In this document: piece after piece, positions 9,517 to 19,611 of the stretch
Layout of the letters: each line of letters begins with the position of its first letter
Position numbering within the stretch: position 1 is the first letter of the stretch
From: Actinopolyspora halophila DSM 43834
GTDB taxonomy: Bacteria > Actinomycetota > Actinomycetes > Mycobacteriales > Pseudonocardiaceae
Reading direction: 5' to 3'
NCBI RefSeq assembly: GCF_000371785.1
Contig: NZ_AQUI01000002.1
Span: 1,591,276-1,655,275 of the forward strand
DNA length: 64,000 bases
Translations under genes and position numbers: made by a program
Notes under the pieces: generated by a model
Database searches by the model: none
What the model saw: only the letters and a program-made list of their open reading frames with translations
What the model was told of the DNA's origin: nothing

Positions 9517-9918
9517 ATGACCGAGTACGCCACCGATTCGATCGAGCTCACACTGGTTCCGGTCGACGGTACCGACAGTGTGGCGCTGGACCGTCTCACC
9601 GGTGCGTTGGCGTGCGAACTCCGCTCGCTGCGTCTCGATTCGGTGGAACGGTGGTTCCCCTCGCGAAGCGGGCCGGGAGCCGAAGGAGGCTCCGCGGTCC
9701 TGACCGATGTCGGGAAACTCTCCGTCGGAGGTCTGCTGCCCGGGTCGGGAGTCAAGGCGATGGTGGGATTGGTGCAGTCTTGGCTGCGCCGGAACGAACA
9801 GGACAGCGTGATCCTCCGGATGGGGGGCGACCACGTGGAGATCACCGGTTCTCCGACGCGCCGCTCCCACCAGCTGTTGAAGGACTTCTACCGCAGACAC
9901 GGCGGAGACGGGTGCTAG
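9517..9918 (+). CDS. Orphan EACC1 (effector-associated constant component 1) domain protein
   Basis: A 133-residue cytoplasmic protein with the pattern of EACC1 domains. Its N-terminus is a beta-rich segment (IELTLVPVDGTDSVALDRLT, LRSLRLDSVERWF). The centre is Gly/Leu-rich and hydrophobic (VGGLLPGSGVKAMVGLVQSW, LRRN). The C-terminus reads SVILRMGGDHVEITGSPTRR. In counter-invader systems EACC1 proteins are normally encoded beside an effector such as a caspase-like or trypsin-like protease; no such gene follows here. Instead it converges on the Wadjet operon 139 bases away. Start ATG at 9517 by similarity of length; the ribosome site (GCTGGAAAA) is weak. Confidence 0.7.
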   Translation: MTEYATDSIELTLVPVDGTDSVALDRLTGALACELRSLRLDSVERWFPSRSGPGAEGGSAVLTDVGKLSVGGLLPGSGVKAMVGLVQSWLRRNEQDSVILRMGGDHVEITGSPTRRSHQLLKDFYRRHGGDGC

Positions 9919-10057: not shown

Positions 10058-11323
10058 TCAGAGCCCGGCGCGCAGTTCCGCGAGCAGCTCGGCGAGCACC
10101 GTCTCCTCCTCGACCGCCCGACCGGCCGTCGACATGAGCTCGGCCAGATCCGGATCCCACGGAGTGTCCACGGGAGTCCCATCCAGAATGGGCAGGTCGG
10201 TCCGTTCCGCCGAGGCGCGGTCCACCGCGGTGCGGTAGTCGGCGGCCGACATGCGCCACGGTGTGATCGTCCGGTGCGTCCACAGGGAGCGCATGGTCGA
10301 CAGCCCGGCCCAGTCGAAGTCCCCGTGGTAGTGCAGCACGGCACCGTCCGCGTTCAACCGGTCGAGCAGTTCCACGGCCGTGGTGGAGGGCCTTCCGGAG
10401 AGACAGACCAGCGGATGCCGGATCCCGCTGTCGACGGCAGCCTCCAGCACGCGCGGGTTCTCGCAGACCGCCACCACGGTGCCCGGAGCCACCAGTCTCT
10501 CCGGTGCGGCGCGCAGATCGAGCCCGGTCAGGTGCACGGGCAACCCCAGCTCCGTGCGCTCCCGCACCGCCGTGGCCCAGCCGCTCCCGCCGAGCAGCGG
10601 AAGTGCCCAGCACAGCACGGTGGCCGAAACGGCGTCCAGCGAAACCCCGCAGGCCTCCCACAGCGCGCGCCGGTCGCGCTCGTTGTTCGGGGGCTCGACC
10701 TCGTGCGCGATGGCGACGGCCCGCAGCACCACCCGGCTCAACGTGGTGCCGTTGTCCAGCAGGTGAGCCCCACCGGCCGCCGTGGCCAGCTCCGCGCGGG
10801 AGTGCCACTTCCGCGGAGCGGCACCCGCCGTGAGCACCAACCGGGAGAGCACCGCAGCGGCTCCACCGGCCACCGGCTCCAGATCCTGTTCGGCGACCCT
10901 GCCGTAATGGCGGATCCAGCGGATCCAGGGCTCGGCCCAGGGGCTGTCGGCCAGGCCCCGCGCGGCCAACGCGGAGGTGAACACCTCGGAGACCCGGTCG
11001 TGGCTCTCGGCGCGTGTTCCGGAGGAGGACTCACGCGAGTTCACCGGCCTGCCGTGCAGGATCTCGAGCGCCTCCTCCAGGCCGACCCCGAACCGACTCC
11101 CGCGCAGTGCCTTGTCCAGTTTGGACACATTGATCCTGGTGCCCTGTCCCCACATCGGACGACCGTAGAGCTCTCCCACGGTCCCGCGCGTCTCCTCGTC
11201 GGGCAGTTCCAGCCGGAAAGTGGGCGGGCGCCCGGAGGCCTCCAGCGCCTGCCTCGCCTGCTCCCACAGTCCGCGCAGCTCCGGAATGTCCCAGGCCGCG
11301 CGTATCTCCTCGACGTCGCTCAA
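10058..11323 (-). CDS. jetD: Wadjet nuclease subunit JetD (TIGR02679/DUF2399)
   Basis: A 421-residue protein, the Toprim-type nuclease of a Wadjet system that cleaves circular DNA once the JetABC motor has recognised it. The C-terminal DUF2399 (Toprim-like) domain shows the conserved acidic residues: Glu in VVAVCENPRVLEAA at about 288 and Asp-x-Asp in HYHGDFDWAGLSTM at about 335. The N-terminal part contains the DNA-contacting region (RGTVGELYGRPMWGQGTRI). The start is TTG at 11323, which overlaps the TGA of jetC as TTGA. Last gene of the operon, convergent with the EACC1 gene. Confidence 0.87.
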   Translation of the reverse strand: MSDVEEIRAAWDIPELRGLWEQARQALEASGRPPTFRLELPDEETRGTVGELYGRPMWGQGTRINVSKLDKALRGSRFGVGLEEALEILHGRPVNSRESSSGTRAESHDRVSEVFTSALAARGLADSPWAEPWIRWIRHYGRVAEQDLEPVAGGAAAVLSRLVLTAGAAPRKWHSRAELATAAGGAHLLDNGTTLSRVVLRAVAIAHEVEPPNNERDRRALWEACGVSLDAVSATVLCWALPLLGGSGWATAVRERTELGLPVHLTGLDLRAAPERLVAPGTVVAVCENPRVLEAAVDSGIRHPLVCLSGRPSTTAVELLDRLNADGAVLHYHGDFDWAGLSTMRSLWTHRTITPWRMSAADYRTAVDRASAERTDLPILDGTPVDTPWDPDLAELMSTAGRAVEEETVLAELLAELRAGL

Positions 11324-14300
11324 TGTTCCGCCCGTTCCAGGCCGCGGCCGTTCCACATCGTGTGGGTGCAGGCGATCCCGTGCCCACTTCGCGGTCGCAG
11401 CACGTCGTAGATGTGCATCGTCGGGATCTTGGGAGAGACGCCCCAACCGCTCGGCCAGGTGATCATCCAGTCCATGTCCAGATCCACGAGCAGGCCGAGC
11501 ATGCGCGCCACCGTCGGATCGTCGAGCCGCTCGAACGCCTCGTCCAGCAGCACCAGGCGCAGTGGCTGGTGCCGCTGGGCCGCCGACTCGATCGCATCGT
11601 AGAACGAAGCCGCCGCGGCGAACAGCGTCACGTAGGACACGAGTCGTGTCTCACCGGAGGAGAGCTGCCGCAACCGCCGGACCCGCGCGGCTCCGTCCGG
11701 GCCGGTGTCGCGCACCCGGACGGTGAACTCGTACCACTGCCGGTAGTCCAGCGCGTCGGCGAGGATCTCGGTGTAACCGCCGGAAACGCTCTCCCGCTGC
11801 GACTCGATCAGCTCGGTGAACACCCTGCGCAGCAGCGCGTCCTGGTCCTCGGTTCGGTCGGCGAACGGGGTGCGGATCACCTCGATGGCCTGCCGCATGT
11901 CCTCGCCGAGCGCGGTGGCCGGTTGCCAGTCCAACTGCACGTGGACCCCCTGGCTCGAGCGCGCTCCCTCCAGCACGCGGTTCATCCGCGCGCACAGGTC
12001 CTCGGCCGTGGCCATCTGGTCGCGCAGCCGCTCCGCCAGGTCGCGGATCAGGTAGTCGGCGAAGATCGTCCGGTACCGCTCGTTGAGGTACTCGCGCTGC
12101 TCGGCGAGGCGTTCGGCGATCTGCCGGGCGGCCTCGGCGACGGGCAGCGGGCCCTCCTCACCGATCACCGTCACGGCCAGCGCACCGGCACGTTCCTCGG
12201 TGGTGATGTCGTAGTGGCCGCTCAGCGACTGCTTCAACGGGTGCAGCTTGTCGTGCACCGCCTTGGTCCCCGGCGTGGCCGAACCGCTCGCCGGGACGGA
12301 CAGCAGCGCCTCGGCGGCCTCCGCGGTGTCGGCGGGTCTGCCGGGCAGCTCGTCCCCGGCGGCTTCCGCGGCGGCGGCCCAGAACGCGGGCAGCTCCGAC
12401 AGCTCCCGGAAGGAGGACGCGGCCTCGTCCGCCGCGGACTCCCGCCGGGAGAGCCGCTCCCGCGCGGAGGTCAGCTTCTCGGTGAGCTTGCCCACCTCCT
12501 CCCGTGCGGCCGAGGCCCGTTCCCGGAGGGCGGGCAGCTCCGTCCGCAACCTTTCGCGCTGTCCCTCGAGCTCGGCGACCTGCTCGGCCACCTGCCGCCC
12601 CTCGTCACCGACCGAGGCGGTCAGCTCGGACAGGGCGGCGGCCTGCTCCGCGTGGTGCTCGCAGTGCTGCTCGGCCACCGACTCGGCCGCCATCCGATCG
12701 GCCACCGTGGCGTCGTGGTGCAGCGCGGTCGCCCGGAGCTGCTCGAGCGTTCCCAGACAGCGCTTCTCGATGGCCTCGCGCAGCGACTCCAGCACGTCGC
12801 GCGCCTCGGTGGCGGCGGTGTTGGCGGCCCGGAGCACCTCGCTGTCCGCCTGCAACCCGGCCTGACCCGCAGCCCTCGTCAGCTCGGAGTGGGCCGCCTG
12901 CCAGCGTTGCTCGGCCTGCTCGTAAGCGCCGCGCAGCTTCGTCGCGGTCCGGTGGGAGTCGTCGGCGTCGTCCACCGCGCTGGCCAGCCTGGCGTGCGCG
13001 CTGAACAGCTCCCCGTCGTCCGGGTAGGACTCCAGCTCCCGCTCCAGCGTCTCCGCGTGCCGCACCGCCTCGGCGTGGTGCCGTTCGGCCCCGTCGAGCT
13101 CCGAGCGCAGTTCTGCCAGCTCGTTCTCCAACTCGGAGACGCGCCTGTCCCGTGCGGCCCGGCGCGCCCCGGCACCCACGTACTCAGCCGTGCCCTTGGC
13201 CCACGTTCCGGAGAGCACACCGCAGCGCCAGTGCCCCGCGGTGTCGACGCTCGGAGAACCGTCGTCCGCTCCCGCGGCCACGGCCCGGAGCAGCGCCGCG
13301 ACGCGTTCCGGGGAGACGGGGCAGTCCGGTTCCGGAGCGGGGACCAGCAGTTCCTCCAGACTCCTCCCCGGGACCGGTTCGCCGGGGGTGGCGATCAACT
13401 CGGCCGTGTCCGGGGCCACGGCCACCCCGTCGCCGGTCACCCACGCGTTCAGCAGGCCGCTCGCCTGCAACGCCCCCTCCAGACGGGCACACTCCACGGC
13501 GGAGAGCGACTCCGCGAAGTCGACCGTCCTGTGGAACGCCGCCCCCTCGGAGGGGAATCGTCCCGCCGTCGCCCAGCAAGGCCCGATCGGTTCGGGATCC
13601 ACCCCGGAACGCGACTCGGCCAGTTCGGCATCGCGGTCGGCGATCCTCGATCGGGTCTCGGAAACGGTCCGTTCGGCCGCGGCCACCCGTGCCCGCGCGT
13701 GGTGCAGCAACGGCCGGGCCCACTCGCGGACCCGTTCCCGGCCGCCCCTGGCGGCGAATCTGTCCGCCACGAGCTCCTCGACGGTGGGAAAGGCCGGTGG
13801 TTCGCCGAACTCCGCCGACTCGGCCGCGAGGGCGCTCCCGTGCCACCAGGTGTTCAGCCTGCGCACCAGATCCATGGCCGTGTCCGTCAGGTCCTGGCGC
13901 ACCTGGTTGCGCCGGGCGGCCGCCTCCGTGGCCGTGACCCTGGCCTGCTCGGCCTGCCTGCGGGTGTCGTCGACCTCGGCCTTCTGCCGATCGGAATCCG
14001 ACGCCTGCTGGTGCAGCGCCAGCGTCAGCGCGGCGCGTTCCCGCGCGGTCTCGGCCGCGTGCTCGGCCCGCTCGTCCACCTCGCGCAGCTGTGCGGCGAA
14101 TTCCTCGGTGTCCGGCTGCGGTGGTGTGTGCCGCTCGACGGTCAGCCACTCGGAGTCCGAGTCGGTGGTCGCACGCACGTACTCCGAGTGCACGGCCGCT
14201 TCCGCAGGCGGAACGGTGGGAACGGCGGGGACCAGCGACCGGTCCAGCCCGGAGGCGGCCAGTCGCTCGGCGCCCCGCTCACAGTGCTGGCCCACCGCGT

Positions 14301-15528
14301 CGACGTCCGAACTCAGCCTGCCCAGCGTGCCGAGCACCGTGGAAACGGACCGCTGCTCCTGATCACGGTGGTTGCCTGCAGTGCGCAGCGCGTTCTCGGC
14401 CGCCGAGCGCGCGCTTTCGACCAGGGCCCTGCGGTCGTGCAGGTTCTGCAGTTGAGTGTAGGCCGGGCTCTGCTGCAGTGCCTGCAGCGAGGACTCCAGC
14501 TCCCGGTCCCTGCGTTCCAGCGCGGAGATCCGTTCCTCGGAATCGGCCCGCGCGGACTGCTCGGAGCCGCATCGCTCGTCCAGCTCCTCGATGGTGGAAC
14601 GCAGCTCCCGACACTGCTGCCGCGTCGTCCGCACCGCCTCGGCCCCGGAACGCAGCAGGCCGAAGGCGTACTCGGAATAGGTCGACATGAACGTGGTCAG
14701 CGCGGTGTCGGCCGTGGTGAGCCGCAGGATGTTCTCCCGGATCGACTCCAGGTCCTCGAAGGAGGTGGCCAGCCGCTGCACCAGCGTCGAGTCCAGCGGG
14801 GGCAGCGCATCGGACAGGATCTGCTCGAGCTGCCCCTCCTGGACCTTCAGCCCCACGTCCGGATTGCGCAGCGTGCGTTGCAGATGCAGCAGATCGCCGT
14901 AGCGCTCGGCGCTTATCCCGTAGACGAGCTCGGCGATCCTGCCGCGGAAGGACTGCTCGTCGAAAACGTGCTCGGTCCCGAGCTCGTCACGCAGCTGGGT
15001 GGGGCCGAGCGGAACCTCGCCCGGCCCGATCAGCCGCAGATCGTGTTCCACCCTACGGTCGGTGATGAACCGCCACGAGTCGCTGATCTGGTTCGAGGAC
15101 GCGGCTGCCTTGACCCCGACCCCGCAGGTCAGGAACTGCTCGGTTCCGTCGTCGAGCCGTCTGCTCAGCTCGATCCAGGCATAGCCGATGCGATTGCCGC
15201 CGCCCTCGCGCTCCTCCAGCATGAGCCTTCTCATGCTGACCGTGTCGAAGCCCTTCGAACCGATCTGACGCAGGTCCCCGTCCAGACAGAGCGGCAGCAG
15301 CAGCTCCAGGGTGCGGGACTTCCCCGAACCGTTGGTTCCCTGGAAGATCGCGCGGCCGCCGTGCAGATCGAACGTCTGGTTCGTGTACTGCCAGATGTTG
15401 AGCACACCGCCCCTGCGCAGCCGCCAACGGTCCCCGTGGCCGGTGTTCTCGGCGCCGTCGACACCGGAAGCGGCGCGGCGGTGCCTGCCGCCCGCGCCGT
15501 CGAGCTGTGTCACCGCTTCGGTGCTCAA
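11320..15528 (-). CDS. jetC: Wadjet SMC-like ATPase JetC (TIGR02680)
   Basis: A 1402-residue SMC-like ATPase, the motor of the complex. Walker A GTNGSGKS lies at about residues 64-71 after NIWQYTNQTFDLHGGRAIFQ. Two long coiled-coil arms follow (about 330-600 and 830-1130, Glu/Arg/Ala-rich), with a hinge-like insert between. The C-terminal head has the ABC signature LRQLSSGETRLVSY and Walker B LRLVLLDEAFERLDD. JetC resembles MukB and is thought to extrude DNA loops. The TTG start at 15528 overlaps the jetB stop as TTGA, with GGAG ten bases upstream. An antisense frame of 1525 codons is a GC-bias shadow. Confidence 0.92.
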   Translation of the reverse strand: MSTEAVTQLDGAGGRHRRAASGVDGAENTGHGDRWRLRRGGVLNIWQYTNQTFDLHGGRAIFQGTNGSGKSRTLELLLPLCLDGDLRQIGSKGFDTVSMRRLMLEEREGGGNRIGYAWIELSRRLDDGTEQFLTCGVGVKAAASSNQISDSWRFITDRRVEHDLRLIGPGEVPLGPTQLRDELGTEHVFDEQSFRGRIAELVYGISAERYGDLLHLQRTLRNPDVGLKVQEGQLEQILSDALPPLDSTLVQRLATSFEDLESIRENILRLTTADTALTTFMSTYSEYAFGLLRSGAEAVRTTRQQCRELRSTIEELDERCGSEQSARADSEERISALERRDRELESSLQALQQSPAYTQLQNLHDRRALVESARSAAENALRTAGNHRDQEQRSVSTVLGTLGRLSSDVDAVGQHCERGAERLAASGLDRSLVPAVPTVPPAEAAVHSEYVRATTDSDSEWLTVERHTPPQPDTEEFAAQLREVDERAEHAAETARERAALTLALHQQASDSDRQKAEVDDTRRQAEQARVTATEAAARRNQVRQDLTDTAMDLVRRLNTWWHGSALAAESAEFGEPPAFPTVEELVADRFAARGGRERVREWARPLLHHARARVAAAERTVSETRSRIADRDAELAESRSGVDPEPIGPCWATAGRFPSEGAAFHRTVDFAESLSAVECARLEGALQASGLLNAWVTGDGVAVAPDTAELIATPGEPVPGRSLEELLVPAPEPDCPVSPERVAALLRAVAAGADDGSPSVDTAGHWRCGVLSGTWAKGTAEYVGAGARRAARDRRVSELENELAELRSELDGAERHHAEAVRHAETLERELESYPDDGELFSAHARLASAVDDADDSHRTATKLRGAYEQAEQRWQAAHSELTRAAGQAGLQADSEVLRAANTAATEARDVLESLREAIEKRCLGTLEQLRATALHHDATVADRMAAESVAEQHCEHHAEQAAALSELTASVGDEGRQVAEQVAELEGQRERLRTELPALRERASAAREEVGKLTEKLTSARERLSRRESAADEAASSFRELSELPAFWAAAAEAAGDELPGRPADTAEAAEALLSVPASGSATPGTKAVHDKLHPLKQSLSGHYDITTEERAGALAVTVIGEEGPLPVAEAARQIAERLAEQREYLNERYRTIFADYLIRDLAERLRDQMATAEDLCARMNRVLEGARSSQGVHVQLDWQPATALGEDMRQAIEVIRTPFADRTEDQDALLRRVFTELIESQRESVSGGYTEILADALDYRQWYEFTVRVRDTGPDGAARVRRLRQLSSGETRLVSYVTLFAAAASFYDAIESAAQRHQPLRLVLLDEAFERLDDPTVARMLGLLVDLDMDWMITWPSGWGVSPKIPTMHIYDVLRPRSGHGIACTHTMWNGRGLERAEH

Positions 15529-16778
15529 TACGGGGATTCTCCTTCCGGAAAGTCGAACAGGGCCGGGGCGGGTGGCTCCGGTGCGGGGAGGGGTTCCGGT
15601 TCGGCGGCGGGACCGGGATCCCCCTCGGGGACCGGAAGCCAACGGTGCGCGCTCGGGCTGAGCAGCCAGCCGTTCGGATCGCCGAGATCGTCCGGCGCCA
15701 GCACGCCCACCCGACGCAGCAGGTCCACCACCATCCGAATCAGCGAGTCCGGATCCTCGGTGGCGCGCCGCGACCACGTCGAGGGGTGGTTCTCCAGCAG
15801 TTCGGTGCAGACCCGCGTGAAATCCTGCCATGTCACCGGATGCCGGTGGTCCCCGGCGCGGGGGGTCGTCGAGTCCAGCAGTTTCGGCAGGGCGAGCTGA
15901 GCGATGCGGGCGACCGTCGACGTGCCGGGGAACGGGGTGTCGGTGAGGTAGTCCTGCGGATCCGCCGTGGCGATTCCCTCCGAACGTGACTCGGCGACGA
16001 TGCCGAAGTACCGCTCCAGCATCCGAGCCTCCCTGGCGCGATGCCTGCGCAGCCAGTTCGCCTGGCTCACCGGCAGGTCCTCGTAGTGCACCACGGGGTC
16101 CTCGACGAGTCTGCGGCGCACAGCCTGCTCGACCGTGGCCACGTGCGACCCTGCCGCGCCGGAGGACAGCGCCACCAGGTGCTCGGGCCCGGTCGCCTCG
16201 GCCAGCGGGCCGCTCAGCAGTTGACCGAGCAGATCGGTGTCGACCGTGATCAACGCTTCGGCCGCGGAGTCGTTCGCCGACGGTGCGACCGTGCCCTCGG
16301 TCTCGGTCAGCACCCCGAGGTCAACCAGGTGACGCAGCGCGGCGGTGAGGGCGCGACGGTCGGTGGGACCGTCGTCGACCACCAGTCCCGCCTCGGAGGC
16401 GTCCGAGTGGACGTCGGCGATCAGCCGGGAGAGCAGCACCTGCTTTCCGCTGCCGGTGAGCGTCGCGAGCGTCAGCGCCACGTACGCGTAACCCCGCGGG
16501 GACAGCGTGGGAACAGCCCGAGTCGGATCCGCACCGGGACCGGACTTGTACAGCCGCGCGTAGCGCCGGTGGATCACCAGCCGGTAGCCGAGCAGCGTGC
16601 TGAACATCTCCTGCAGCACGGCACGGTGCCGGTAGATCATCCCGAGCAGCTCGCCGTCCTGGCTCTCGGTGTGCAGCAGCGGTCTGCGCAGCAACGACCG
16701 CGCGCATCGGACCACGTTCGCCGCGTCGATGTCGCCGAGCCGGTCGAAACTCTCGATGCCGTGCTCCTCTCCGCTCAA
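15525..16778 (-). CDS. jetB: Wadjet subunit JetB (TIGR02678/DUF2398)
   Basis: A 417-residue protein of the DUF2398 family, proposed to act like the KITE protein MukE beside the SMC subunit. Family traits are the early VVRCARSLLRRPLLHTESQD and the central LGYRLVIHRRYARLYKSGPG, followed by PRGYAYVALTLATLTGSGKQ. The C-terminus is a Pro/Glu-rich tail (EGDPGPAAEPEPLPAPEPPA). The start is TTG at 16778, which overlaps the jetA TGA as TTGA with GGAG upstream; a later ATG would lose the conserved N-terminus. jetC follows with the same kind of overlap. Confidence 0.87.
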   Translation of the reverse strand: MSGEEHGIESFDRLGDIDAANVVRCARSLLRRPLLHTESQDGELLGMIYRHRAVLQEMFSTLLGYRLVIHRRYARLYKSGPGADPTRAVPTLSPRGYAYVALTLATLTGSGKQVLLSRLIADVHSDASEAGLVVDDGPTDRRALTAALRHLVDLGVLTETEGTVAPSANDSAAEALITVDTDLLGQLLSGPLAEATGPEHLVALSSGAAGSHVATVEQAVRRRLVEDPVVHYEDLPVSQANWLRRHRAREARMLERYFGIVAESRSEGIATADPQDYLTDTPFPGTSTVARIAQLALPKLLDSTTPRAGDHRHPVTWQDFTRVCTELLENHPSTWSRRATEDPDSLIRMVVDLLRRVGVLAPDDLGDPNGWLLSPSAHRWLPVPEGDPGPAAEPEPLPAPEPPAPALFDFPEGESPY

Positions 16779-18526
16779 CGGGCCGCTCCGCTGATCCTGT
16801 CCGAGGTCCCGCCGTGTTCGGCCGGGTGCTCGTATCCGGCGGTGACGTCCAGTTCCACCACGGTGTCCTCCAGGACCAGCTCGCCCGTGCTCCCCGTTAT
16901 CCGCGTCGTCCGCGCCGAATCGTGCCGAACGGTCAACCGCAGCCCGTGCACGGGCTCCGTGGCGGTGCCCGCATCCTCCGGGGAGTCGCGCCCGGCCATC
17001 GCCAGGCTCAACAGCTCGCACAGCATCTCCAGGGCGTCGGAGGAGACCCGGAGCTCGTCCGGCTCCGCCCGGGAAGCGGCCAGCTCGGCCGCGGCCCCGG
17101 CGCGGCGCTGCTGGTTGGCGCGTTCCTCGTCCAGCAGTTGTTGTTCGGTCATCGGGTCGTGCAGCACTCTGGACGTTCCCCCGCGCGTGCTCCGGTCGGA
17201 GCGGTTCCGCACGTTCACGGGGATCTCCGTGCGCCTGCCGTCCCTCCAACTGGTGGTGTGCTCGTCCGCGTCGTGCTCGGGAGCGGGTTGCACGCAGCGT
17301 GCCGAGTACAGCCCGAAGGCCGCGGCGTGCAGCTCGTGGGCCTCGTCCGGGGTGCAACGATCGAACCAACGTGCCAGCTTCAGCAGATCACCGCGATGCC
17401 CCGGAACCGGGCCGCTCCCGGAGGTGGCGTGTTTGACGCTGGCGAGCAGCGAGCCGATGGCCCGAGCGGTGGCCTCCCGCAACGCCGAGACCTGGCTCGG
17501 CCGTCCCGGTGAGTCCAGGAACCACTCGGTGAGCTCTTGCCAGTCGGCGGCGGTGCGCCCGCGTGCCCGCTCCACCTCGGCGCCGAGTTCCTCCTCGGTC
17601 CCGAGCGCGGTGAGCAACTCCTCCCTGCGGGCCGCGAGCGTTCGCAACGAGGCCGCCACGGGTTCGGTGTAGCGGATCACGTCCTCGACGACCGCTTGGA
17701 TGTACTCGACCAGCAGGTTGCGGAAACCGGAGATCTCCTTCGGGTCGAGCTGGTGCCTGGTGACCACCTGTCCCAGATAGGCGTAGAAGTCCCGAACCGT
17801 GGCGGCGAGCTCGGAGTGCTGCAGGAACACCGTCGTCACCTGCTCCGCGAGCCGCTCGCGGGCGCCTTCCTGGGCGGACCCGGCGGAAAACGCCGTGGGC
17901 AGGAGTTCGACGATCTCCTGGAGTCCCCGTTCGACGGCGGGCAGCAGCTCCCGCGAGACCTCCCGCGCTCCCTCGGGAACGCGCAGCAACGCGTCCACGT
18001 CCCGCTGAACTCGTACACCCAGTTTGCTGACCTGGAAACGAGCGCTGCCGTGCTGGAACTCGGCGATGCTCGATGCGACCGTCTCACGCCGCCCGAAGGT
18101 CAGGTTGCCCCATTCGCGGAGTTTCCGGAGCCGTTCGACCACGGTCGGCAGTTCGGACTCGCCCGCGGCGATCCTCCCCTCCCGCTCGGCCACGGCCAGC
18201 GCTCCGGACACCTCGGAGGCGGACAGATCGGCGAGCAGTGTCGAGGTGAACAACCGCATGATCGTCAGGTAGGTGCGGTGTCCGCTCACCTGGAGGTGGC
18301 GGTAGAGCAGCAACCTCCGCTCGTCCGACCGCTCGTCGGAGGCGAGCTCGTCCTCCCCGGCCCCCGATGTGCCCCGTTCCCCAGTCAGGAGCGGAGCCTC
18401 GGGGTACTCGCTCTCCCGAGTGGAATGCCCGGCGGAGTTCCGTTGCGTGACGGAAGGGCCGTTCGGATGGGCTGTGTCGGTCACGGTCTCGGTACGCGGC
18501 TCCACGGCTTCGCGATCGACGGTCAC
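16775..18526 (-). CDS. jetA: Wadjet subunit JetA (TIGR02677/DUF2397)
   Basis: A protein of about 583 residues of the DUF2397 family, probably the kleisin-like (MukF-like) subunit that bridges the JetC heads. The family core begins near residue 95 (RRLLLYRHLQVSGHRTYLTI, MRLFTSTLLADLSASEV) and continues through LRKLREWGNLTFGRRETVAS and GFRNLLVEYIQAVVEDVIRY. About 90 disordered, polar residues precede it, longer than usual. Two GTG starts are possible. GTG at 18526 follows a TATGGT hexamer by 8 bases and could be nearly leaderless; GTG at 18484 is the alternative. First gene of the operon, divergent from cobD. Confidence 0.85.
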   Translation of the reverse strand: MTVDREAVEPRTETVTDTAHPNGPSVTQRNSAGHSTRESEYPEAPLLTGERGTSGAGEDELASDERSDERRLLLYRHLQVSGHRTYLTIMRLFTSTLLADLSASEVSGALAVAEREGRIAAGESELPTVVERLRKLREWGNLTFGRRETVASSIAEFQHGSARFQVSKLGVRVQRDVDALLRVPEGAREVSRELLPAVERGLQEIVELLPTAFSAGSAQEGARERLAEQVTTVFLQHSELAATVRDFYAYLGQVVTRHQLDPKEISGFRNLLVEYIQAVVEDVIRYTEPVAASLRTLAARREELLTALGTEEELGAEVERARGRTAADWQELTEWFLDSPGRPSQVSALREATARAIGSLLASVKHATSGSGPVPGHRGDLLKLARWFDRCTPDEAHELHAAAFGLYSARCVQPAPEHDADEHTTSWRDGRRTEIPVNVRNRSDRSTRGGTSRVLHDPMTEQQLLDEERANQQRRAGAAAELAASRAEPDELRVSSDALEMLCELLSLAMAGRDSPEDAGTATEPVHGLRLTVRHDSARTTRITGSTGELVLEDTVVELDVTAGYEHPAEHGGTSDRISGAAR

Positions 18527-18663
18527 AGTCGGCCACCATAAACCCGGGCCGTCGGCGGGCCGAAAACACTCCGTTACCGGTGTCGGGGGAATGCCGGGGG
18601 AGTTCGTCGGAACGGTAGCGTTTCGCGACGGATCGGCGTCGAACTTTCCGAGGAGGGAACGCG

Positions 18664-19611
18664 GTGAACGCGGGGCGGGCGGTCGGACTGTTACTCGGGG
18701 TGGCCGCCGACGCGGTGCTGGGGGACCCCGAGCGTGGGCATCCGGTGGCCGCTTTCGGACGATTGGCCGAACGCGTCGAGCGGGTGGTTTACCGGCGGAG
18801 CCGTTCGGCCGGGGTGCTCTACGCGGGTGTCCTCGTGGGGGGAAGCGTCGCGCTGGGCTCGGTGCTGGAACGGTCCGCCCGCCGTGGTCCGGCGACCCAG
18901 GCGGCTCTGACCGCCGTGACCACCTGGACGGTGCTCGGTGGGGCCTCGCTCGGGCGCGAGGGGGCTGCGCTGGCCCGCCACCTCGAGTCCGGGGAGCTGG
19001 AGCAGGCACGTGCCCGGCTGCGTGGCCTGTGCGGCAGGCGCACGGACAAACTCGATCGACAGGGCTTGGCGCGCGCGACGGTGGAGTCCGTGGCGGAGAA
19101 CACCTCCGACGCCGTGATAGCTCCCCTGCTCTGGGGAGCGGTCGGCGGGATTCCCGGCCTGATCGGGTATCGGGCGGTCAACACCCTGGACGCCATGGTC
19201 GGGAACCCGAGCAGTCGCTACAGGGAATTCGGCTGGGCCGCTGCGCGGTCGGACGACGTGGCGAATCTGCTCCCCGCGCGTGCCACGGCCGTGCTGACGG
19301 TGCTCTGCGCTCCCGTCGTCGGTGGTTCGGCCGCGGGGGGGTGGCACACCAGGCGCAGGGACGCCGCGGCCCATCCCAGCCCGAACGCCGGGCAGGTGGA
19401 GGCCGCCTTCGCCGGGGCGCTGCGCATCAGGTTGGGCGGGCGCATCGACTACGGACACACGGCGCAGACCCGCCCCGTGCTGGGGGAGGGGCGCACGGCC
19501 GACGGTGGTGACGTCACCCGCAGCGTCGAGCTGTCCAGAGTGATCGGAACGGTCGGCGGGGTGCTGGCGGCCGGGGTCGCGTTGTTCACGGGGAAGTCCC
19601 CACGGCGGTGA
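18664..19611 (+). CDS. cobD: Adenosylcobinamide-phosphate synthase
   Basis: A membrane enzyme of 315 residues (CobD/CbiB) that attaches aminopropanol phosphate to adenosylcobyric acid in vitamin B12 synthesis. Family motifs are the N-terminal DAVLGDPERGHPVAAFG, the central DKLDRQGLARATVESVAENT followed by SDAVIAPLLWGAVGGIPGLI, and GYRAVNTLDAMVGNPSSRYREFG. The His/Pro-rich DAAAHPSPNAGQVEAAFAGA follows. About four hydrophobic segments are present. The GTG at 18664 follows GAGGGAAC. The conserved backbone resumes at this gene. Confidence 0.93.
   Translation: MNAGRAVGLLLGVAADAVLGDPERGHPVAAFGRLAERVERVVYRRSRSAGVLYAGVLVGGSVALGSVLERSARRGPATQAALTAVTTWTVLGGASLGREGAALARHLESGELEQARARLRGLCGRRTDKLDRQGLARATVESVAENTSDAVIAPLLWGAVGGIPGLIGYRAVNTLDAMVGNPSSRYREFGWAAARSDDVANLLPARATAVLTVLCAPVVGGSAAGGWHTRRRDAAAHPSPNAGQVEAAFAGALRIRLGGRIDYGHTAQTRPVLGEGRTADGGDVTRSVELSRVIGTVGGVLAAGVALFTGKSPRR

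Follow-up and report, generated by a model that had tools for sequence, protein, structure and literature searches.

An intact type II Wadjet beside cobD in Actinopolyspora halophila represents a lineage whose JetABC core may have a second, JetD-independent role

In a 64,000-nucleotide stretch of Actinopolyspora halophila DSM 43834 (contig NZ_AQUI01000002.1; the whole stretch is hereafter the window), four co-directional open reading frames on the minus strand, from 18526 to 10058, make up jetA, jetB, jetC and jetD. Judged by its sequence this operon is a complete, intact type II Wadjet and, by itself, an ordinary member of the known Wadjet family. Comparison with its relatives suggests that it belongs to a vertically inherited, cobD-linked lineage in which the JetABC core would have a second role independent of JetD, a reading to which we give a probability of about 0.62. 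We infer the second role because the motor has been kept in the relatives while JetD has repeatedly died, been lost or been swapped.

A complete type II Wadjet in A. halophila

The first gene, jetA (16775..18526; 583 amino acids, GTG start), encodes a kleisin-like type II subunit with DUF2397. It is followed by jetB (15525..16778; 417 amino acids), encoding a KITE-like subunit with DUF2398, jetC (11320..15528; 1402 amino acids), encoding an SMC (structural maintenance of chromosomes) ATPase, and jetD (10058..11323; 421 amino acids), encoding a DUF3323 arm with a DUF2399 Toprim nuclease, all on the minus strand. Each of the last three genes has a TTG start that overlaps the stop codon of the gene before it, and since all three junctions are the same 4-base TTGA stop/start overlap, translation of the four jet genes is probably coupled.

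We compared the four proteins with profile collections. All four PADLOC type II profiles matched, JetA2 (PDLC00541) with 591 bits, JetB2 with 381, JetC2 with 1218 and JetD2 with 372, and the Pfam domains DUF2397 (362 bits), DUF2398, SbcC_Walker_B and DUF3323 plus DUF2399 were found above their cut-offs. NCBIfam models TIGR02678 (JetB), TIGR02680 (JetC, 736 bits) and TIGR02679 (JetD) also scored above cut-off, and JetA reached 135.1 bits against TIGR02677, below the cut-off of 165.85. An initial annotation of this DNA had described four co-directional genes of the TIGR02677/02678/02680/02679 neighbourhood and assigned them to Wadjet, most likely type II, with all catalytic elements intact; coordinates, type and motifs held up, with TIGR02677 alone below its threshold. 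In JetC, the Walker A motif GTNGSGKS (15316..15339) falls in invariant alignment columns, and the signature LSSGE (11650..11664) and the Walker B motif LVLLDEAF (11533..11556) are intact as well. In JetD, the Toprim glutamate is residue 288 (VAVCENP; 10460..10462) and the DxD motif is DFD (residues 335-337, with D335 and D337; 10313..10321), these five motifs likewise being on the minus strand. What defines a type II Wadjet was thus all found: JetA2, JetB2, JetC2 with its ATPase motifs and JetD2 with Glu and DxD, in one co-directional four-gene operon.

The sequences of JetA and JetB matched chain E (JetA; E 3.9e-12) and chain D (JetB; E 0.0014) of PDB entry 9qe0, and the JetC alignment profile matched chain A (JetC; E 8.5e-95), so that all three core subunits match the solved complex 9qe0/9qe1 by sequence. 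We take 9qe0 to be the type II complex of Neobacillus vireti, the structure of which was reportedly published in Structure in 2025. With type II Wadjet (JetABCD-II, e.g. N. vireti; 9qe0/9qe1) the window operon shares the same four families and motifs. The present lineage differs in being fixed beside cobD and vertical, not sporadic, and in having a nuclease that is often dead, swapped or lost.

Position beside cobD and descent

The operon has a divergent neighbour at 18664..19611 on the plus strand, which we take to be cobD/cbiB and which marks a conserved locus in tblastn synteny comparisons. DUF2397 was found in 10/10 genomes of the genus searched and in 35 of the 61 genomes of a first sample. 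Furthermore, the operon adjoins CobD divergently in all ten Actinopolyspora genomes and at 16 loci from 16 other genera, with SURF1 and usually also FN3K and Nif3 lying beyond CobD. A near relative is A. biskrensis, whose JetC is 94% identical. A scan of public genomes, in which the best 80 of 242 relatives gave 79 named loci and close relatives are favoured, placed CobD beside the operon in 75/79, the four exceptions all belonging to Actinophytocola. The locus sets used here, L032-L057 and L079-L157, partly overlap (L032 is L079).

The JetC tree (91 rows) follows genera for the most part. JetC distances correlated with those of CobD (Mantel r 0.87, 75 loci), SURF1 (0.86, 73 loci), Nif3 (0.90, 45 loci) and FN3K (0.82, 62 loci), with p 0.001 for each test over 999 permutations. 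A mobile defence island would be expected to occur patchily and at differing positions in closely related genomes. This was not found; both the tree and the distances track the flanking genes. The constant place across the genus and 16 further genera argues for inheritance and rules out a recent island or mobile insertion, and on these sequence comparisons the operon is chromosomal, cobD-linked and passed on vertically within a single large clade. The initial annotation had seen the operon as interrupting an otherwise conserved gene order, which is not the case within the genus or at the loci of the 16 other genera.

The window JetB was matched in 151 of 249 genomes of the family, which we understand as Pseudonocardiaceae in the wide sense, including Actinopolyspora (Actinopolysporaceae at NCBI). 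Twenty-two of the matches were weak and 129 strong (54-100% identity); the strong ones span 26 of the 46 family genera, and the 129 cobD-type genomes are those picked by JetB identity, not by a check of the place in each. In the phylum, DUF2399 was present in 9/149 genomes, A. halophila included, and DUF3323 in 26/396.

State of JetD in the relatives

At 79/79 named loci JetA, JetB and JetC have 84-108% of the window lengths and intact ATPase motifs, whatever the state of JetD. The exact patterns of all three motifs are present in 74 loci; four deviate just after Walker B and one has GANGAGKS. JetD was searched for with a hidden Markov model built from eight cobD-linked JetDs, up to 10 kb to each side, although the downstream sequence was only 2.3 kb for L136 (counted among the loci without JetD) and 4.4 kb for L143. 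The overlong JetD of L043, used as a query, gave false partial matches within jetC and was discounted. Nineteen loci had a JetD with Glu and DxD, 26 a JetD with the Glu replaced, five a truncated JetD and one a TIR fusion, and in 28 none was detected. The 19 with active motifs comprise three of Actinopolyspora, one of Halosaccharopolyspora, 14 of Saccharopolyspora and that of Actinokineospora iranica. Glu is replaced by Gln in Actinopolyspora mzabensis, righensis and alba (and in a fourth genome of the genus beyond the 26), by Q, A, T, S or M in eight Actinokineospora JetDs, and by Arg, with Thr for the second Asp, in all 15 Lentzea JetDs; across genomes, the residues found in place of Glu288 at this locus are Q, A, T, S, M, R and H. 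Truncated or remnant JetDs belong to two Streptoalloteichus, Longimycelium and two Umezawaea. The Glu plus DxD set is accordingly incomplete in 26 of the 45 full-length JetDs of the cobD-linked locus in named relatives, and an SMC core without nuclease, as in MksBEF, is seen at 28/79 loci of relatives and not in the window. The JetD of Actinokineospora fastidiosa (L149:13953-15785), which has Met for Glu, carries in addition a low-complexity insertion of ~200 residues before the Toprim domain.

Twenty-six of the 129 genomes carrying this JetB have no DUF2399 anywhere, as do six of the 26 genomes with the cobD-linked locus in the first sample; Actinoalloteichus caeruleus is an example of a species with no DUF2399 gene. 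With JetD absent, cut short or devoid of its Glu, many of the relatives' loci cannot, on sequence grounds, be expected to cut DNA. A replacement of canonical SMC by JetABC was considered and ruled out in the 19 genomes searched, all of which have an SMC above the cut-off. In the type I protein MksG, the mutations E236A and D279A are described in the available text of PMC10123090 as drastically impairing nuclease activity, and by analogy the same may hold for a type II JetD.

As a control, JetDs outside the cobD-linked locus (second copies in the same family, and phylum samples) were compared. Glu was kept in all 43 distinct JetDs that have the position, two of them with DxG; fragment L185, in which the Glu position is empty, and L062, which gave no JetD match, were left out. 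The difference between 26/45 at the locus and 0/43 outside it gave a Fisher p of 2e-10, for sequences that are not independent. The cobD-linked JetDs tested, dead and active, form one clade (100/100) with the dead ones nested inside, and the active JetD of A. iranica falls among the dead JetDs of its genus in the JetD tree, which suggests that the JetDs most likely died in place. With regain excluded, active JetD was lost 11 times on the JetC tree, or nine times with weak branches collapsed.

Replacement of the nuclease

In Saccharothrix sp. S26 (L129:16014-17120) TIR_2 (1.2e-24) takes the place of the Toprim domain, in a fusion with the JetD arm (DUF3323, 1e-23). Full-length fusions of this kind were found in 3/390 family genomes, all of one genus code; besides L129, loci L215 and L216 carry the fusion. 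All three sit at cobD-linked JetABC, one beginning 37 bases after the jetC stop, and the arm belongs to the clade of cobD-linked JetDs (100/100), where it has a long branch and an exact position supported at 85/83. Ratios of non-synonymous to synonymous substitution rates (dN/dS) were 0.17-0.24 for the fusion. None of 146 matching plasmid records covered 80% of it. Among the papers searched, those that mention Wadjet, JetD and a TIR domain together describe no TIR effector for Wadjet, the TIR domain being named for Lamassu, in a reference title and for Thoeris; if it works with JetABC, the fusion would add a new kind of effector to Wadjet.

In most Lentzea loci (L103-L147) and in Saccharothrix L129, the JetD or the fusion lies 1-3 kb from jetC with genes between (coordinates 14.0-17.6 kb within the locus stretches), and yet is conserved.

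These findings bear on the main rival explanation, a modular immune sensor, in which JetABC senses circular or foreign DNA and drives varied effectors, the JetD arm being an adaptor; its Toprim domain could give way to another effector (TIR in Saccharothrix), persist as an inactive regulator (Lentzea) or be provided in trans. This is possible, though less probable than the second role, with which it is compatible. It would account for the three family genomes with a TIR fusion, all at cobD-linked JetABC and with the dN/dS given above, and for the pseudonuclease in 15/15 named Lentzea loci, which has a dN/dS of 0.19 over 14 species. Against it, just one genome (G384) of the 26 devoid of DUF2399 is among those with the TIR fusion. 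Moreover, the plus-strand genes that follow jetC within ~4.5 kb at the 28 loci without JetD showed no replacement effector common to most JetD-less genera: one gene family occurs in four genera and two others in two genera each. The four-genus family is not a likely partner of JetABC, the member scanned being an M14 peptidase.

Selection on the JetABC core

In groups without JetD the median pairwise dN/dS (Nei-Gojobori) of JetA, JetB and JetC was 0.06-0.23 overall, compared with 0.10-0.22 in groups with active JetD. Individual values were 0.19-0.23 in Saccharothrix (seven species, one of them with the TIR fusion of L129), 0.08-0.10 in Kibdelosporangium (four species) and 0.06-0.12 in the single pairs from Allokutzneria and Crossiella. 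By these ratios, JetABC without JetD is under purifying selection. Per-position conservation of JetA, JetB and JetC correlated at 0.75-0.76 between the JetD-less and JetD-active sets, so no large part of the machine has clearly been released. A JetD-docking surface was looked for in the relaxed columns, and JetB 312-323 stood out (z 3.6); this exploratory result is distrusted owing to phylogeny.

The same data weigh on a second alternative, that the operon is kept for plasmid restriction only and that JetD-less JetABC in the relatives are decaying leftovers. All four parts are indeed intact in the window; between the window and A. biskrensis (one pair), the dN/dS of JetD was 0.17 compared with 0.13-0.20 for JetA to JetC; and 12 of the 13 second-copy jetA genes outside the locus (26 genomes) have their own DUF2399 gene within 8 kb, a count in which two copies in G016 share one DUF2399 and from which a jetA fragment of 41 positions in G019 was excluded. 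Leftovers should break, however, and the near full-length JetA, JetB and JetC with their ATPase motifs at every named locus, the purifying selection in JetD-less genera and the correlation of column conservation all make this explanation unlikely. More doubtful still is the view that JetABC would by itself silence or compact circular DNA and leave it uncut, with defence outlasting the loss of the nuclease: it would explain the conserved core, and such silencing has been proposed for Smc5/6 in the available text of PMC10586767, but all four subunits were needed for restriction in Bacillus subtilis according to the same text.

Discussion

In type I and type II complexes, according to the parts available of PMC10586767 and PMC12647877, the extruding JetABC motor activates JetD after full extrusion, and circular DNA is cut. 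By comparison with such complexes, JetA, JetB and JetC of A. halophila would assemble into a dimeric SMC motor able to load on DNA and to extrude loops. Cutting by JetD would follow once a small circle has been fully extruded. As the JetD encoded in this genome is intact in sequence, the operon probably still cuts plasmids, and their restriction by it is plausible. The relatives suggest that the JetABC core has in addition a role without JetD, most likely a condensin-like organising of the chromosome or other replicons as by MksBEF, and that the place of JetD acts as an effector slot open to evolution: it may be filled by an active nuclease, by a pseudonuclease or by a TIR fusion, or stay empty. 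A more far-reaching version, which we offer tentatively and at a little under even odds, is that the type II Wadjet of Pseudonocardiaceae has turned into a resident SMC machine, with JetABC conserved for a task on the chromosome or in general DNA surveillance and the JetD arm as a port for exchangeable effectors. If so, the family would span a graded series of natural forms, with a defence nuclease at one end and a condensin at the other.

Several points weigh against a second role of JetABC in a vertically inherited lineage. First, this JetB is absent from 20 of the 46 family genera as sampled, and the operon is therefore core to a clade and not to the whole family. Among 16 CobD regions retrieved from genomes that lack this JetB, eight keep CobD-SURF1 and have no operon, so the pattern fits a single gain as well as later losses. 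On this wider scale the interruption of gene order described in the initial annotation is partly borne out. That annotation had named as refuting evidence that related genomes always carry the genes here as core genes unrelated to defence; of this, the constant placement was found, in the genus and at the loci of the 16 other genera. Secondly, some cores are less than perfect: among the 79 loci the window match runs 2-22 residues beyond the stop in four JetA and one JetB, and three family genomes have one stop inside the JetB match. In the loci inspected, these early stops of JetA and JetB are terminal and leave the proteins complete in all other parts. Constraint is also weaker in Actinokineospora, with a dN/dS of 0.36 for JetB and 0.47 for the dead JetD. 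Thirdly, the number of losses depends on the model, since five changes suffice on the JetC tree when regain is allowed (two-state), and the Glu replacements require just three changes on the JetD tree. Fourthly, the catalytic Glu of JetD was assigned from alignment to the Toprim motif, and a sequence search of the PDB with the JetD profile returned no related solved structure, only chance ferredoxin matches. Finally, in some genomes where the locus lacks a usable JetD there is another Wadjet elsewhere, unlinked and equipped with a JetD that could act in trans, and JetABC could restrict plasmids without cutting.

Similar systems are known. MksBEF of Pseudomonas aeruginosa has an SMC-kleisin-KITE core without nuclease, like the JetD-less loci, whereas the lineage described here is of the type II family, has nuclease loss at different stages side by side within a single bacterial family, and retains canonical SMC (19 genomes). 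EptABCD of Mycobacterium smegmatis and MksBEFG of Corynebacterium glutamicum are likewise actinobacterial JetABCD systems and, in the available text of PMC10123090 and PMC12287153, restrict plasmids or plasmid copy number; neither is described in that text as nuclease-less or cobD-linked, and the C. glutamicum system is there called type I and adjoins adhA. Lamassu, in the excerpts available of PMC10586767, also joins an SMC-like sensor to varied effectors, TIR included. The present swap differs in that it affects the JetD arm of a Wadjet rather than LmuA.

The same 2023 review (PMC10586767), as far as its accessible text goes, gives a Wadjet motor action on the chromosome as undocumented and the origin of nuclease-free MksBEF as inferred and not observed. 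In the present lineage the complexes are orthologous and share one locus, yet their nuclease may be active, dead, swapped or absent, which would make the question of a chromosomal role testable in related soil bacteria. The lineage also calls for care in annotation: the PADLOC JetD2 model matches Glu-less JetDs, with E 2.9e-100 in A. righensis and 2.8e-39 in a Lentzea, and profile matches alone may therefore overstate active plasmid defence. In a search that left most subscription papers outside, no printed account turned up of a type II lineage that is inherited vertically and in which the nuclease has repeatedly died, been lost or been replaced by TIR, and within the same limits 'loss of JetD' was found only in the accessible text of that review; as to the novelty of a JetD-loss lineage, such silence is weak evidence of absence.

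Other observations in the A. halophila genome

A probable promoter of the jet operon lies at 18532..18577 on the minus strand, where two blocks are kept among eight aligned upstream regions of Actinopolyspora. The block GTAACGGAGTGTTTTCGG (18577-18560) is identical in seven of them, with one mismatch in the eighth, and the block TTAT(G/C)GTGGC (18541-18532) is present in 8/8 and ends 5 bases before the GTG start of jetA. The jet transcript may thus be leaderless.

Convergent with jetD, a 133-amino-acid protein is encoded at 9517-9918 of the window on the plus strand. It had no match in Pfam, NCBIfam or PADLOC. The gene is near the operon in 9/10 genomes of the genus, not always adjoining jetD, and is missing there in A. 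mortivallis.

The second contig of the assembly (G000:C1, 94,790 bases) has a weak match to a MobA/VirD2-like relaxase, and no match was found when its two ends were compared. Perhaps it is a plasmid of about 95 kb that coexists with the intact Wadjet; this size is near the limit of 50-100 kb quoted for Wadjet.

An orphan JetD with Glu and DxD intact is encoded elsewhere in the genome (G000:C2:5225645-5227024; L168:3646-5025). No JetABC was seen in the surrounding 10 kb, and the genome has no second DUF2397. Its neighbours are presumably an iron-sulfur oxidoreductase-like gene and two near-identical Uma2-like genes. By its arm, this JetD clusters with one from a sister species that belongs to a second Wadjet copy there.

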